IMG/VR virus record: IMGVR_UViG_3300032240_000618
Coordinates: 1 to 29,667 of that record
From: a virus
Reading direction: 5' to 3' (one strand)
DNA: 29,667 bases
The notes beneath the pieces are model-generated. The model saw nothing but the letters and a program-made list of their open reading frames with translations, did not search any database and was not told the DNA's origin. Positions within the stretch are counted from its first letter, which is position 1, and each line of letters starts with the position of its first letter. Both the position numbers and the translations under genes were made by a program. Shown here piece after piece: positions 6,239 through 14,850 of the stretch.

Positions 6239-8905
6239 TTATCCTCCATAACTAATTCCTATCTTGCTCTCGCAGTTCAGCGGCAGGCCCTGTGCCCACT
6301 TGGGCCTGATCCTCATGCATTGCTCGACGAACGTTCTACCTTCGTCAGCTTCTTCGACCTTAGCCAGCGCACCCACGGCATCGTGTACGGTCATAACCAC
6401 AGGTAGCCGCCGTGCGATCATCAGCATCTGCTCGCCAATGATGATGCGGGCCAAGGCTTGGCACAGGTTCTCAACCATCTTGCCCCCATATATCCGGTTA
6501 GGGATAGAGGCTTTGCCTTTCTTGGTGGTGTAGACCATCTCCTCCTTACCGGTCTTTTCATAGACACGCAGTCGGAGCCCGGGGTACTTAACCCATAGGC
6601 CGTTAGGTAGACGCACACCGCTGGGGCTAACCGACAAAATGTTCGGAACCCCGATAGGCTTAGCCCCGCCACGAACCATCTCGTTAAGTGCCTCTTGAGC
6701 CTGCGACCACAACCTTGGGATCATGGGGTAGGTCTCGCGGTAGGCACTGATGATGCGCTTGCATTCCGCCAGTGGTAGGTCAACACCGAAGGTCTTAAGC
6801 TGTATGCGGAACTTCTGCGGCCCCATCCCGTAGCCGCAGTTATGTACGATAATCGGACCTGCATCGGTCGCAACTGTGTATCTGTTCCTCGGCCCTGCGT
6901 AGGCGATGTCGTAGGTCATCAATCTCCGTCTGGAGGATACTGACCTTTCTTCGGTTAGCATGGTTGTCTGCCCGCGAGACAAATTGGATGTTACCGGGTT
7001 CGTACCCCCGGTTATTGTCTGCGCGGTCCATATCGAACTCGGGGTTATCCCATCCCGGTAGGGTTTGAGCATAATGCAGAAATTCTGCGCGGTCGTCTCT
7101 CCACGACTTGCACACGGTGATACCTCTACCCCCATAGTCGGCGTACACCCGGTTGGTAGGTACGTGACAGCGGTTGATAGCCGAAGAAAGTCGGTTGAGT
7201 AGTCGCTCCCGATGCGCGGTATCGGGGAGTGCAGAGCTATATTTCCAGTAGCGTTTTCTGTGCCCTTCTCGCCTACCACACAAAAGGCAGCGGGTGCTTT
7301 TAAAGTTTTTGAAGTTGTGTTTATCGACGGTGTATTCTGATTGTCCGCAATCACATTGGACGATGAGCGCAGAGACTCCACTCCGCGTCCCTGTGACGTA
7401 CCCGGTGACAACCAACTGACCGCTCCGGTGTCCAATGCTAGGGAGAGGGTATTTCTGTCTTGTGCCACTGATTGCGCTTCCAGCCACTGTGTCCCGCACA
7501 ATACTTTGTGATCCGGCGTCAACCAAAGCCCGCAAAGACTCAATGTTTCTTTGGTGCCTTTCTTCACTAGTCCTTGATGGCATACCCACTCTTCTCCGTC
7601 CCATAGCTGGTCGGAGGTAGTCACCTCCTCAATCGCTACCCAGCCACGATCAGTTAGTACTGGAGTTCCCTCGGCAAGACAACCCAAGATTGTTGTTTTC
7701 CCTACAAATCGCTCTTGCTCAGTTATGGTATCTACTGGTTTGCCGTAGATGCTCGACGCCATGATCTTGTACACGTCCTCGCCTTTATCGAAGGCTTCGA
7801 CCAAGTCCTGCTGCCCCGCCAGCCACGCAAGGGTGCGGGCCTCGATCTGACTGCTATCGCAGTCGATCAGCAAGTATCCGTCTGGCGCGCGCATTGCCTT
7901 CTTTAGCTGCGACTTGCGCGGGAGGTTTTGAAGATTAACCTTGTCGTCGCCGCCCCAGCGGCCTGTGTGTGCTGCATAGTAGCGTAGGGGCACAGGAAGA
8001 GGGCCGCGCTCAGCGATACTAATGAACCGCTCAGTGCGGCTCTCCTCCAACGTAGACTTAACTCCTAGGCGCGCAGCTACAATTGCCTGAACAACGAAGT
8101 CTTCATGGTCGAGAAGCGCCTTGAACTCCTCATCTGTTTTGGCAAAAGCGTAAGTCTGCTTACCAGTGGTAGGACTTACCTTCATCGGTGGAGCTACTCC
8201 CAGAGACAGCAGGGTCTGTGCCAACTGGGGATTGCTCATCAGGTTTTCTTTGCTTATCAGCGCCTTGTCTAGCAGCTTCTCTTTCTTCTCTCTTACAGAC
8301 CTCAAATGGTCTTCGAGTACACACTTGTCCAACTCCAGCTTGGGTTCGGAGAACATCCTGATCGTCAGGTCAATTAGCCGCATCTCCAGCTTCGGCATCT
8401 GCGGAGCCATCGCAGCAAACAGGTCGTAGGTAAGCTCTACGTCATTGACGCAGTACGCACCGTACCGCTCAAGCTCTGCCGGGGTGAAATCAATACGCCG
8501 CTTGCCAAGCGCGTTCAAGACCTCAGTGCCCTTCTCACCTAGCTCGTAGTACTCGGCCAGTGACTTGAGGCTCAGGCTGATCCCATCCGCACCATGCAGC
8601 GCCCTTGCCATAGACAGCGTATCCGCAATCATCTTGGGGTGGATATCAAAATGCCAGCTAAGGATAGCCAGATCAAACGCAGCGTTGTGGGCTACAACTA
8701 CGCTACTAGCGTAGTCGAACTGGGCAAGCCACTTCTTGGTCGCGGGCATCGGCCCGCTGAACCACTGGGTTTCGCCGTCGTTGACTTTGACAGCAACACC
8801 GATCACTTCGAACAACTCGTGCCGAATGTACTCCTCGGTTGTAATCTTGGAGAGAGAATACTGCGGGTCGTAGTAGGTTTCCATATCTACTGTAATGATG
8901 TTCAC
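6239..8905 (-). CDS. polA: Family A DNA polymerase with 3'-5' exonuclease, split by an intein
   Basis: 888 residues including an intein at 409-689; the spliced enzyme would be 607 residues. Exonuclease motifs: VDMETYYD (Asp7, Glu9), AHNAAFD (72-78) and YCVND (Tyr151, Asp155). Polymerase motif A is DCDSSQIEAR, with Asp350 and Glu355. Motif B is split: RFVGKTTILG (Arg399, Lys403) joins CGYGMG after splicing, giving the R-x3-K-x7-YG spacing of the O-helix. Motif C is TVHDAVG (His841, Asp842). There is no 5' nuclease domain, as in T7-type replicases, so it is probably the phage replicative polymerase. The start is GTG 8905, overlapping the upstream stop as GTGA. Polymerase activity should depend on splicing, because the insertion separates the conserved Lys and Tyr that bind the incoming nucleotide. 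Confidence 0.96.
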   Translation of the reverse strand: MNIITVDMETYYDPQYSLSKITTEEYIRHELFEVIGVAVKVNDGETQWFSGPMPATKKWLAQFDYASSVVVAHNAAFDLAILSWHFDIHPKMIADTLSMARALHGADGISLSLKSLAEYYELGEKGTEVLNALGKRRIDFTPAELERYGAYCVNDVELTYDLFAAMAPQMPKLEMRLIDLTIRMFSEPKLELDKCVLEDHLRSVREKKEKLLDKALISKENLMSNPQLAQTLLSLGVAPPMKVSPTTGKQTYAFAKTDEEFKALLDHEDFVVQAIVAARLGVKSTLEESRTERFISIAERGPLPVPLRYYAAHTGRWGGDDKVNLQNLPRKSQLKKAMRAPDGYLLIDCDSSQIEARTLAWLAGQQDLVEAFDKGEDVYKIMASSIYGKPVDTITEQERFVGKTTILGCLAEGTPVLTDRGWVAIEEVTTSDQLWDGEEWVCHQGLVKKGTKETLSLCGLWLTPDHKVLCGTQWLEAQSVAQDRNTLSLALDTGAVSWLSPGTSQGRGVESLRSSSNVIADNQNTPSINTTSKTLKAPAAFCVVGEKGTENATGNIALHSPIPRIGSDYSTDFLRLSTAVTYLPTGCTPTMGVEVSPCASRGETTAQNFCIMLKPYRDGITPSSIWTAQTITGGTNPVTSNLSRGQTTMLTEERSVSSRRRLMTYDIAYAGPRNRYTVATDAGPIIVHNCGYGMGPQKFRIQLKTFGVDLPLAECKRIISAYRETYPMIPRLWSQAQEALNEMVRGGAKPIGVPNILSVSPSGVRLPNGLWVKYPGLRLRVYEKTGKEEMVYTTKKGKASIPNRIYGGKMVENLCQALARIIIGEQMLMIARRLPVVMTVHDAVGALAKVEEADEGRTFVEQCMRIRPKWAQGLPLNCESKIGISYGG
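6839..7681 (-). mobile_element. Intein in the polymerase O-helix
   Basis: A 281-residue intervening protein sequence. It begins with Cys at 7681 (CLAEGTPVLTDRGWVAIEEV, block A). It continues with GLWLTPDHKVL, whose Thr-x-x-His at intein residues 55-58 is block B. It ends with YDIAYAGPRNRYTV...PIIVHN (blocks F and G), then Cys+1 of the polymerase. All the residues for standard cysteine splicing are present: Cys1, block B His, penultimate His, terminal Asn and Cys+1. Between about intein residues 65 and 250 the frame is Ser/Thr-rich and shows no endonuclease motif, although the length is more than a mini-intein needs. That middle stretch encodes an HNH protein in another frame (next entry). The phage-side flanks read ILG and CGYG. 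Confidence 0.93.
6840..7604 (-). CDS. HNH homing-endonuclease-like protein nested out of frame in the intein
   Basis: 254 codons on the same strand as the polymerase but in another frame, wholly inside the intein DNA. Residues 59-110 hold SGQLVVTGY and two Cys pairs, CDCG (84, 86) and CLLC (106, 109), a zinc ribbon. Residues 154-168 read YADYGGRGITVCKSW and 189-219 read FDMDRADNNRGYEPGNIQFV, then NHANRR. That is the usual order of phage HNH homing endonucleases (Y-x-x-YGGRGI-x-VC-x-W, then D-R-x-D-N-x-GY-x-PGN). The TAA stop at 6842-6840 overlaps the last intein codon. ATG 7604 is the first in-frame start, with GAGGAGGTGA rather far upstream; ATG 7583, with GGAGA 9 bp ahead, may be the real one. 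About 55 N-terminal and 35 C-terminal residues overlap the splicing blocks. Confidence 0.8.
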   Translation of the reverse strand: MGRRRVGMPSRTSEERHQRNIESLRALVDAGSQSIVRDTVAGSAISGTRQKYPLPSIGHRSGQLVVTGYVTGTRSGVSALIVQCDCGQSEYTVDKHNFKNFKSTRCLLCGRREGHRKRYWKYSSALPDTAHRERLLNRLSSAINRCHVPTNRVYADYGGRGITVCKSWRDDRAEFLHYAQTLPGWDNPEFDMDRADNNRGYEPGNIQFVSRADNHANRRKVSILQTEIDDLRHRLRRAEEQIHSCDRCRSDYRT

Positions 8906-10148: not shown

Positions 10149-10459
10149 CACGTTGTTCCTTCTGATGATAGTAGTTTTTGCACCAGCGGGCGTATCATGT
10201 CCCAGTTCTCTTCGTTAGCGACCATAGCAACGCCACCCGCTGCGCGGATGCTCTCGATCTCACGCACTTGCAGGGCAGTTGGTTTCTTAGCCCCTGCCTT
10301 GCACTCGATAGCAAGAAAGTTACCGTTTACGCATGCTATGATATCAGGAACACCGCTACGCCCATATCCGTGGGTAGCAGGGAAGAAGTAGTACACCCCT
10401 TCCTCGCGCAGGATTTTGGTTACGCTGTCCTTGACCTTACCCTCGGGGGTTCTTGCCAT
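10148..10459 (-). CDS. VRR-NUC family nuclease (PD-(D/E)XK)
   Basis: 103 residues matching a minimal VRR-NUC domain. The catalytic residues are Asp39 in GVPDIIACVNG and Glu52-x-Lys54 in LAIECKAG, with Thr-x-Leu-Gln (61-64) after them. The family is found as standalone phage proteins and in FAN1; it cuts branched DNA such as replication forks or Holliday junctions and can act as a resolvase before packaging. The whole fold appears complete for the phage short form. It starts at ATG 10459 after a weak ribosome site, four bases beyond the zinc-finger mini-gene. Its stop is coupled to the next gene by TGATG. Confidence 0.92.
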   Translation of the reverse strand: MARTPEGKVKDSVTKILREEGVYYFFPATHGYGRSGVPDIIACVNGNFLAIECKAGAKKPTALQVREIESIRAAGGVAMVANEENWDMIRPLVQKLLSSEGTT

Positions 10460-10463
10460 GGTC

Positions 10464-10604
10464 TTATTCTCTATCTTTCAATGCTTTAACAGGCGGAAGC
10501 AGTGCTTTGGTGGTACATGTTTTGCGCATACAGGACTTCACACCAGACACGCTGATCTCAGTATTGCAGTAGTCACACCAAATCGGTGGTGGCGTTCTTG
10601 CCAT
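10464..10604 (-). CDS. 46-residue zinc-finger protein
   Basis: The frame from ATG 10604 to TAA 10464 reads MARTPPPIWCDYCNTEISV then GVKSCMRKTCTTKALLPP. Two Cys pairs, CDYC and CMRKTC, make a compact four-cysteine zinc ribbon. It overlaps the end of the preceding gene by 32 bases in another frame, so two real frames appear to share this stretch. The start has GGAACCGGCG upstream, a mediocre ribosome site. Its N-terminus MARTP is the same as that of the VRR-NUC protein that follows, perhaps by chance or from a local duplication. A nucleic-acid or protein-binding role is likely; the details are unknown. Confidence 0.62.
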   Translation of the reverse strand: MARTPPPIWCDYCNTEISVSGVKSCMRKTCTTKALLPPVKALKDRE

Positions 10605-10752
10605 CGCCGGTTCCATTCTTTCGGATTAGAGTTTGCACGATGTGCGGGTGCTCGCTGCACAGACGATTGAGCAGGTTCTGAGAAGCCATCGTCATGCGGA
10701 CGTAGGTGTCGTACTCATCCTTGGGTTTGTCGTGGTGAGAGTAGGTGTCCAC
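10573..10752 (-). CDS. 59-residue phage protein, first gene of the 10.8-kb operon
   Basis: The frame from GTG 10752 to TGA 10573 encodes a His- and Asp-rich N-terminus (VDTYSHHDKPKDEYDTYVRM), then a helix with TMASQNLLNRLCSEHPHIVQ. It is preceded by AAGGAGCAAACCG, the shared leader motif, and by a very good promoter 27-55 bp further upstream. As the first gene of the transcription unit that includes VRR-NUC and polymerase it would be made abundantly and early. No domain is recognised. It overlaps the zinc-finger mini-gene by 32 bases. Confidence 0.7.
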   Translation of the reverse strand: MDTYSHHDKPKDEYDTYVRMTMASQNLLNRLCSEHPHIVQTLIRKNGTGDGKNATTDLV

Positions 10753-10778
10753 CGGTTTGCTCCTTTATTATGGCAGCG

Positions 10779-10807
10779 AGTATCGGTATACCATTGGACA
10801 ATGTCAA
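10779..10807 (-). promoter_or_regulatory. Strong sigma70-type promoter for the VRR-NUC to polymerase operon
   Basis: On the minus strand TTGACA (10807-10802) is followed, after a 17-bp spacer, by GATACT (10784-10779), a 4-of-6 match to TATAAT. The next features downstream are AAGGAGCAAACC and the GTG start at 10752, so the leader is short. A transcription terminator for the previous unit lies just upstream at 10,819-10,845. The pair forms a compact terminator-promoter boundary. Confidence 0.75.
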
Positions 10808-10818
10808 GTGCTAAAAGG

Positions 10819-10845
10819 GATCGGGCTAACCCAGTTAGCCCGATC
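10819..10845 (-). terminator. Intrinsic terminator after the ribbon-helix-helix gene
   Basis: A perfect 11-bp stem (GATCGGGCTAA with TTAGCCCGATC) closes a 5-nt loop. On the minus strand the stem is followed by CCCTTTTAG, a short U-run. It lies 9 bp after the stop codon of the RHH gene, which transcribes towards it. The T-run is weak, but the stem is strong and the position is right. Confidence 0.75.
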
Positions 10846-10854
10846 TAAACCAAA

Positions 10855-11025
10855 TTACAGGTGCTCTTTCATGTACGCACGTAGAGCCTCGCGCATGGTG
10901 GCCGAGAACGCCGAGTGGTTCTTGTAGTACTCGAAAATGTCCATCGGTACGCGCAGGTGGATCGACACCATTGCGTCACCCGTGGGGGGACGCCCGCGCT
11001 TCTTGGACTGTGCTTCATCGGTCAT
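10855..11025 (-). CDS. Ribbon-helix-helix DNA-binding protein
   Basis: 56 residues from ATG 11025, with AGGAGCACAGAGAA ahead. After a basic KKRGRPPTG segment, AMVSIHLRVPMDIFEYYKNH gives the N-terminal beta-strand and first helix of a ribbon-helix-helix fold; FSATMREALRAYMKEHL is the second helix. RHH proteins of this size dimerise and repress promoters, often their own operon. It is the last gene before a strong terminator and just upstream of the 10.8-kb promoter, so it could regulate the switch to the polymerase operon; that is inference. The start overlaps the end of the preceding gene by 11 bases. Confidence 0.85.
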   Translation of the reverse strand: MTDEAQSKKRGRPPTGDAMVSIHLRVPMDIFEYYKNHSAFSATMREALRAYMKEHL

Positions 11026-13430: not shown

Positions 13431-14657
13431 TCACACCTCCTTGACATGAATGGTTTTGCCCACCGGGGCGGTGTACGCTTGCTTGTTGATGACGACCCAA
13501 AGAACCGGCGCAGGCCAGTCATCGCCCCAGTTATTGATCTCACCGTCCGTCACCATGATTATGCACTGTGGCTTGATGTGGTTCTCGCGCAGGAACTTGG
13601 TCATACAGCGGGGGTCGGTGCCGCCTCCACCTGTTGGCTTGGTAGAGTTAAGCATCATCTCGCGGTTACCGTCCGTGTAGACCTCATGCCGCTTGACCTC
13701 GGTGTCCCAGTAGATGAGATGTGTCGCCTCTGGCTTGACGGCATCGAGCAACCCCTTGACCTCGGACATACACGCCTTGACCGCAGCGGGGGACATGTTG
13801 GACGCCGACGTATCGTAGCCGATAGCTACACAGCCCACGCGCTCACCGATAAGCGAGGGGATATAGATACCCTCACCGATGAACCGCCGGTTAGCCCTGC
13901 GCCACGTACTCGTATCCTTGGCCACGCACTGACTACGCACGTACTCGGCAAGCTGCGCCCGCCAGTCCACCTTGGGCTTCAGCACATCCGTCAGGCTGAT
14001 CGGCAGGTTGTTGCTGCCAGCACCCGCTTTGAGCGCACGTTCATGAGCCATCTTGCCTTGGGCGATTGCCCGCTCGATTTCCTGCGTAAGTTCCTGCTTC
14101 TCAGCTTGCGATAGCTGATCCCCCGCACCCCAGTCGTGCGTGTCGAAGTTGTTCCCCGGCTCGCTGCCGTTCTCCTCCTTCTGCTTACGCAGGTCGTCGA
14201 ATATCTCCTTGGTCGTCCAGCCCTTGTACTTGGGTTCAAGCAGACCGATGCGTGTACCGTCAGGCGTACGGGGGAAGGCGATGTATTGCTCCCCCGGGTC
14301 GAGGTCCACGAGCATCTGGTTAATGCGGTAGTCGCAAGCACAGTTAGCGAGGTGCGGGTCGATCTTGGACAGCGCCTTATAGACCGACAGGTCTTGCGCC
14401 ATCTTGTGGCCACCCGCCTCGTGCAGCACGACGAAGGCAACCATCCTCTCGTCCTTCAGGCTCTCGATGAAGCCACGCCCGTACTTCTCGTTACGCCCGT
14501 CAGTGCAGGCAGTCGGGCACTCGTTGTCCTCTACCACCTCGCTGGTGCCCACAGACAGGATGCCAGAGAAAATAGCGAACTTGTCGCGCCGACGCAGGTT
14601 GATCCTCACGCGCTCCAGCACGCGCTCTGCGCTGTGTATGTCTATTACGCTAGCCAT
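13431..14657 (-). CDS. DUF2201-type metallopeptidase-like/VWA protein (CobT/ViaA-like)
   Basis: 408 residues from ATG 14657 (AAAAGGAGCAAAC upstream). The N-terminal part matches the DUF2201 putative metallopeptidase layout: VVLHEAGGHKMAQDL (77-90), then CACDYRINQMLVDLDPG (about 106-122), which corresponds to the family's A-x-D-x-x-IN signature. The expected HExxH here reads H-E-A-G-G-H, so one extra residue separates the two His. The C-terminal part is a VWA-like domain with a MIDAS motif DTSAS (282-286), a GGGGTD loop and TDGE. In bacteria VWA proteins pair with MoxR ATPases (RavA-ViaA, NorQ-NorD, CobS-CobT) to remodel or metallate targets. The MoxR partner lies two genes upstream. A frame extension to 14711 overlaps the leader and is rejected. 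Confidence 0.9.
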   Translation of the reverse strand: MASVIDIHSAERVLERVRINLRRRDKFAIFSGILSVGTSEVVEDNECPTACTDGRNEKYGRGFIESLKDERMVAFVVLHEAGGHKMAQDLSVYKALSKIDPHLANCACDYRINQMLVDLDPGEQYIAFPRTPDGTRIGLLEPKYKGWTTKEIFDDLRKQKEENGSEPGNNFDTHDWGAGDQLSQAEKQELTQEIERAIAQGKMAHERALKAGAGSNNLPISLTDVLKPKVDWRAQLAEYVRSQCVAKDTSTWRRANRRFIGEGIYIPSLIGERVGCVAIGYDTSASNMSPAAVKACMSEVKGLLDAVKPEATHLIYWDTEVKRHEVYTDGNREMMLNSTKPTGGGGTDPRCMTKFLRENHIKPQCIIMVTDGEINNWGDDWPAPVLWVVINKQAYTAPVGKTIHVKEV

Positions 14658-14676
14658 AGTAGTTTGCTCCTTTTGA

Positions 14677-14850
14677 TTAGTGTTCGGTTGGCCCGTTGCC
14701 GGGGCGCTCACCTATCGTGATACCGAGGGTTTGCAGTGTGTGAATGCTCTGCGCTGTGATCGTGGCATAAGCGTTCATTGCCTTAATCAAGCTAGACACT
14801 GCGTTACATAGCGAGTCGATATCCCACTCGTCGTCGTTGTTGTTATCCAT
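14677..14850 (-). CDS. 57-residue protein between MoxR and VWA genes
   Basis: The frame from ATG 14850 to TAA 14677 encodes MDNNNDDEWDIDSLCNAVSS, a helix with LIKAMNAYATITAQSIHTLQ, then a Gly/Pro-rich tail. Its start overlaps the MoxR stop as TGATG, so it is coupled to that gene. It ends 19 bp before the VWA start, leaving room only for the ribosome site. The acidic N-terminus and one amphipathic helix suggest a small linker or regulator for the ATPase. No family is recognised. Confidence 0.72.
   Translation of the reverse strand: MDNNNDDEWDIDSLCNAVSSLIKAMNAYATITAQSIHTLQTLGITIGERPGNGPTEH

Follow-up and report, generated by a model that had tools for sequence, protein, structure and literature searches.

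A phage DNA polymerase A intein whose DNA also encodes, in another frame, a putative HNH homing endonuclease

We describe what is very probably a dual-coding mobile intein, in which the host frame would splice itself out of a phage DNA polymerase while the same DNA, read in the +2 frame, would give a separately translated HNH homing nuclease. It lies in a viral stretch of 29,667 nucleotides that we call the window (IMG/VR record IMGVR_UViG_3300032240_000618). Computational comparison gives both frames, the selection acting in each, their predicted folds, a conserved start codon, empty insertion sites and lateral spread, and it is from these that we infer splicing, expression, cleavage and homing.

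The host gene encodes a DNA polymerase A with a 3'-5' exonuclease and a polymerase domain, has extein homologues that lack the intein, and is a stop-free ORF of 888 codons running from 8905 to 6239. The features are the following:

6239-8905, minus strand: DNA polymerase A gene, interrupted by the intein
7682-8905, minus strand: N-extein
6239-6838, minus strand: C-extein
6839-7681, minus strand: intein in the host frame, 281 aa, polymerase residues 409-689
7394-7681, minus strand: N-terminal splicing segment, intein residues 1-96 (pLDDT about 94 over residues 1-90)
6938-7393, minus strand: intein-frame filler, residues 97-248, Ser/Thr-rich and predicted disordered (pLDDT about 30; dNN/dSN 0.75 over residues 88-235)
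6839-6937, minus strand: C-terminal splicing segment, intein residues 249-281 (pLDDT 93-94, 84 at the end)
6840-7604, minus strand: nested HNH endonuclease gene, a 254-codon ORF offset by +2 from the polymerase frame
7581-7583, minus strand: likeliest nuclease start codon, an ATG built from GTA (Val33) and TGC (Cys34)
7278-7355, minus strand: nuclease zinc ribbon (C84, C86, C106, C109), invariant in 36 sequences
6948-7214, minus strand: nuclease HNH core, residues 131-219 (H131, YGGRGI, DR..NN.GYEPGN, N214, N217; pLDDT about 90)

The sequence-only reading from which we started had proposed a host frame open across a 281-residue intein with splicing blocks and, on the same strand, an out-of-frame HNH protein of 254 codons with a zinc ribbon, placed in the slot usual for an intein endonuclease and ending on a stop that overlaps the intein end. 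All of this holds. Cys1, block A (CLAEGT), block B (TPDH), block F with its YD motif and block G are all present, and the C-terminal HN is followed by the Cys+1 of the C-extein. C1, T55, H58, D258, H280 and N281 are invariant across 39 inteins, and the +1 residue is Cys at all tabulated occupied sites except one (Ser). Judged from sequence and structural models, these splicing motifs, a Hint fold and a precise insertion with empty alleles are those of a class 1 intein. The second frame carries the nuclease motifs CxC...CxxC, YGGRGI and RADNNRGYEPGN, sits between the two splicing segments at offset +2, and closes with a TAA at 6842-6840, within the codons for the terminal His-Asn; in relatives CAT-AAC, which encodes that same pair, often provides the stop. 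The phage fragment holds a second, unrelated HNH endonuclease gene at 13431-14711 on the minus strand (phrog_1314, 1.4e-81).

The second frame is not an accident of composition. A profile search bears out the HNH assignment, with a match to the HNH endonucleases of phrog_374 (E=1.6e-30, residues 57-221) and to three more HNH or restriction endonuclease families; Pfam and NCBIfam give no accepted family for the nuclease, and in Pfam the zinc-ribbon CapR (E=0.0014) falls below the cut-off. When the intein was shuffled synonymously 20,000 times, no shuffle reached the 262 open codons of the +2 frame, the 99.9th percentile being 144 codons. When it is the HNH protein that is held fixed, just 0.27% of such shuffles leave the host frame open from end to end. 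Nature provides a control of the same kind: at all 21 newly found nested loci (L095-L115) the host frame is open and both splicing segments are present, while a long open second frame occurs in 0 of about 59 free-standing HNH relatives. Long other frames do exist in five bacterial free-standing HNH loci (L208, L212, L232, L236, L241), but they come without splicing blocks and are probably due to high G+C.

The layout also recurs. A survey of loci by tblastn and HMM found the same +2 offset in 76 continuous inteins (a redundant count), so that the second frame is conserved in related inteins; three of these loci (L032, L036, L037) have lost the nuclease core. Carriers include Vibrio phage 97.13, Pseudomonas phage MR14, EBPR siphovirus 2 and Salmonella phages, and our main comparison set consists of 41 non-redundant relatives, with Vibrio, Pseudomonas and Salmonella phages among them. 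Among the surveyed loci with splicing blocks, none has the HNH in the host frame; the offset is always +2 or +1. The sequence-only reading had itself pointed to a pair of compensating sequencing indels as the error that could mimic such a nested gene, and this is excluded because the same offset is found in dozens of independent contigs and in sequenced isolates. These shared layouts, together with the shuffles, the phrog_374 match and the purifying selection described below, leave a negligible probability for a chance open frame, an annotation error or a sequencing artefact.

Selection acts on both frames, each dominating a different stretch. Host codon position 2 is codon position 3 of the HNH frame, and it is the most variable position in the intein middle: over residues 88-235, variability between pairs of relatives at host positions 1, 2 and 3 is 0.185, 0.539 and 0.261. 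Over residues 1-30, before the nuclease start, the values are 0.215, 0.123 and 0.417, which is the normal polymerase pattern. We estimated dN/dS-like ratios with a four-class overlap method, which is approximate, the pairs being non-independent and the bootstrap running over codons. In the core (residues 88-235), strong purifying selection acts on the HNH frame (dNN/dNS 0.11, interval 0.08-0.14) whereas the intein frame is nearly relaxed (dNN/dSN 0.75, interval 0.58-0.93), which is the asymmetry that the sequence-only reading had proposed to look for. The intein-frame ratio is 0.16 in the N-terminal splicing segment; in the C-terminal one the two frames are similar (0.35 for the intein, 0.33 for HNH). 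Constraint on the HNH frame is weak in the N-terminal tail of the nuclease (0.59, with an interval up to 1.02). Eleven enterobacterial phages repeat the pattern, with 0.13 for the HNH core, 0.66 for the intein middle, and 0.19 and 0.04 for the splicing segments. Almost all relatives also show a higher identity for the nuclease than for the intein frame (for example, 62% versus 46%). The description of the intein middle as filler is thus confirmed by its variable second codon position and its predicted disorder.

How the nuclease would be made is suggested by its start codon. An ATG in the HNH frame stands at either of two positions two codons apart in 41 of 41 non-redundant relatives. The downstream one requires Val33 to be encoded by GTA, and this is so in all 33 cases where Cys follows, against 7.4 expected from each gene's own codon usage (shared ancestry uncorrected). 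In the window this conserved start is the ATG at 7583-7581, giving a protein of 247 aa; a GTG stands at 7589-7587 and the first ATG at 7604. The separate ORF of 254 codons that had been read from the sequence therefore stands as an open frame, but its likeliest start lies downstream of the one assumed. The purine stretch upstream is no stronger than synonymous expectation from the conserved WDGEEW (mean 4.63 versus 4.31), so that translational selection is visible in the start codon and not in a Shine-Dalgarno sequence. Alternatively, programmed -1 frameshifting could yield the nuclease as a fusion to the N-extein and the N-terminal segment of the intein. An offset of +2 equals -1, the direction of slippery-site frameshifting, and a few relatives do have X_XXY_YYZ heptamers in the region. 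Yet these heptamers occur in only 7 of the 41 relatives, at varying positions, none is found in the window, and no slippery site is conserved among the 41; moreover, the ATG is kept by synonymous choice, and a -1 route would not serve the related nested genes that lie in frame +1. We consider frameshifting quite unlikely, and translation from an internal start the better reading.

The predicted structures agree with this division of labour. The AlphaFold model of the intein has confident ends (pLDDT about 94) around a middle of about 30, and its top Foldseek matches are inteins (mini-inteins of DnaX, RecA and DnaB, with probability 1.00 and E of 1e-3 to 1e-2). The nuclease model has a mean pLDDT of 83; sequence and fold searches of the PDB returned no significant nuclease match for it. 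The disordered middle of the intein would also suit an insertion that is never spliced but remains in the polymerase as a disordered loop, and there is a precedent in the ShiLan domain of phage methylases, an in-frame insertion with a hidden HNH for which this has been proposed (PMC11855218). Here, though, all splicing blocks and the Cys+1 are present and constrained, the fold matches are inteins, and a loop of 281 residues should not be tolerated at this site, which lies in polymerase motif B. An unspliced loop is therefore highly improbable, and we retain the self-splicing intein.

Several lines of evidence point to lateral spread of the element, as far as can be judged from sequences. In empty polymerases the intein is absent exactly, with no residue missing or extra at the site, and their +1 residue is Ala in 30 of 32, versus Cys or, once, Ser in occupied ones. 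In the polymerase tree, the presence and absence of the intein requires at least six gain or loss changes, and one occupied polymerase (L022) groups with empty relatives in that tree and with the window group in the intein tree. The intein of the window and that of L002 are 88% identical in their bases while the extein bases are only 55-60% identical. Finally, an occupied and an empty polymerase (L016 and L051), whose exteins are 93% and 90% identical, drop, within about 120 nt of the site, to an identity of 0.73 on its upstream side and of 0.57-0.78 on its downstream side, a flank divergence that resembles a co-conversion tract. The exactly empty sites, the conflict between the trees and the divergence of the flanks next to the insertion thus make the element look mobile, as the sequence-only reading had supposed. 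Two observations on the sites deserve mention. An empty polA site with Cys at +1 (L061:6221-6222) has a flank nearly identical to that of the occupied L016, and is possibly a case of precise intein loss. Also, the same intein family uses two insertion sites in polymerase motif B, KT|C and LG|C, which lie three codons from each other.

Phages also employ HNH proteins for other purposes, and the broader family of this one is mostly free-standing, so that a real HNH protein might serve packaging or the breakdown of host DNA, for instance, rather than homing. Such a function is very unlikely in our view: the gene is confined to the intein and travels with it, it is absent from the empty alleles of near-identical polymerases, and it has been lost while the intein was kept in L032, L036, L037 and L035. 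HNH family similarity and residence in a mobile element at its own putative target site are, on sequence grounds, the marks of a homing endonuclease.

The cycle that we propose would be as follows. The polymerase frame would give a continuous precursor, in which the intein folds from its two conserved end segments and presumably excises itself, as its motifs and fold suggest and also its location within polymerase motif B. The DNA between the end segments would be a homing endonuclease gene in the +2 frame, whose separate translation would begin at an internal start codon, about 96 nt after the intein begins, and end at a stop inside the last two intein codons. In PolA alleles that lack the intein, the free HNH nuclease would make its cut at the insertion site; repair off the occupied copy would then bring in the intein and, with it, the element's own +1 Cys codon and some flanking sequence. 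The filler of the host frame would be kept open only, and not conserved. Since the DNA of the intein ends encodes the nuclease tails as well, the bases there would serve both proteins.

The nuclease is mostly unannotated among the records inspected. A close relative of the Ent2 intein is found in 165 phage records (147 from Salmonella and 11 from Escherichia); the Ent2 record annotates the splicing domains only, and those of Shigella EP23, E. coli fEg-Eco19 and the inspected Salmonella phages annotate the polymerase alone. In the host frame, all 39 aligned inteins match phrog_93 (in the intein of the window over residues 20-255, filler included). This family is labelled 'endonuclease', yet the endonuclease sits in the other frame, and automatic annotation may therefore mislead.

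Related layouts suggest that the window is one case among several. Two PolA inteins on bacterial MAG contigs (L252:537-4349 and L255:2199-4172) hold the HNH in frame +1, and in this pair the codon signature is correspondingly shifted. Frame +1 is also used in an SNF2-type helicase intein (L081:8977-11463, with the HNH at 10190-10909; also L025) and in a DEAD/ResIII-type helicase intein (L206:1252-4050). In other PolA genes the intein is split, its halves flanking a free HNH gene (L155:1485-4324 and L139:1344-4318), with intein and HNH families that are the same as in the window. Some polymerases carry two inteins, an upstream split one with a free HNH and a downstream nested one (L023:4995-8674 and L035:4965-8662); the upstream split intein was found in L002/L023 and L004/L035. 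In L035:7312-7818 (same contig as L004), a premature stop breaks the nested nuclease while the intein frame is still open, which is an early stage of decay. Mini-inteins of 137-158 residues have the nuclease core deleted (L032:1311-1721, L036:4813-5286, L037:2143-2574). A PolA gene on a Bacillota MAG contig (L176:1751-4297) shows a second, small intein-like block pair upstream of its nested intein. Free-standing relatives can be aligned to the nuclease only over about residues 42-240, so its tails seem peculiar to the nested form, and we think that these tails arose by overprinting of splicing-block DNA. Taken together, we lean slightly towards out-of-frame nesting being a general and repeatedly evolved way for homing nucleases to colonise mini-inteins, using at least two frames, in PolA and in two helicase inteins, and interchanging with the layout of split intein and free nuclease; splicing-block DNA would have been overprinted into new N- and C-terminal nuclease tails, tying the two proteins to each other in sequence.

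The idea of an out-of-frame intein nuclease is not new. For the large terminase TerL of a brucellaphage, one sentence reports an 'intein-encoded HNH endonuclease located out of frame' (PMC4422536, 2015). By that description, the likeness lies in an HNH out of frame within a phage gene, intein-encoded in the authors' term, and the difference in the extein, which is not PolA; the passage concerned contains no splicing-block, selection or comparative analysis. The ShiLan domain with its hidden HNH, an insertion in a phage methylase gene (PMC11855218, 2025; also PMC12613952), shares with the window an open host frame, an HNH in a third frame, a TAA in the last four bases and a disjunct distribution, but it sits in a different gene and has no splicing domains. 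Its HNH gives only E=0.06 against the present nuclease profile, the families being unrelated; with splicing blocks present as well, we rejected a ShiLan-type element for the window. On the subject of overlapping frames, the ShiLan paper cites a 2025 bioRxiv study of actinobacteriophage inteins of 'non-canonical architecture' and Gorbalenya 1998 (PMC11855218). In the literature covered, which excludes these two, we found no description of the PolA family, of selection in both frames, or of the series of +1, +2 and split forms; the precedents are the brucellaphage sentence and the non-splicing ShiLan.

The present family adds an element with two genes that occupy one stretch of DNA in different frames, an arrangement that extends across a large phage family. 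It makes a strong case of dual coding, and it is relevant to the ways in which mini-inteins are invaded by endonucleases and to the origin of split inteins with free nucleases. It is also directly testable, because so many phage records carry a close relative of the Ent2 copy.

The textbook intein is one polypeptide with splicing and endonuclease domains, and canonical bifunctional inteins have a LAGLIDADG or HNH domain in frame. The window shares with them the Hint splicing domain, an endonuclease between blocks B and F and, in all likelihood, the homing life cycle, but its endonuclease lies outside the intein polypeptide; with the HNH at offset +2 and not in the host frame, it is not an intein of that kind. 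Fractured genes, in which a free-standing endonuclease gene lies between the halves of a split intein, were reportedly described by Dassa et al. in 2009. There too a separate nuclease protein is encoded at the endonuclease position of the intein. L155 and L139 do qualify as such; the window does not, since its intein is continuous, the host frame is open throughout, and the nuclease gene fully overlaps the intein in another frame. Group I introns, finally, may hold internal homing endonuclease genes, and the likeness is that of an endonuclease gene inside a splicing element, made as a free protein. Unlike in those introns, the nuclease gene must leave the host frame open along its whole length, because splicing here would be carried out by protein.
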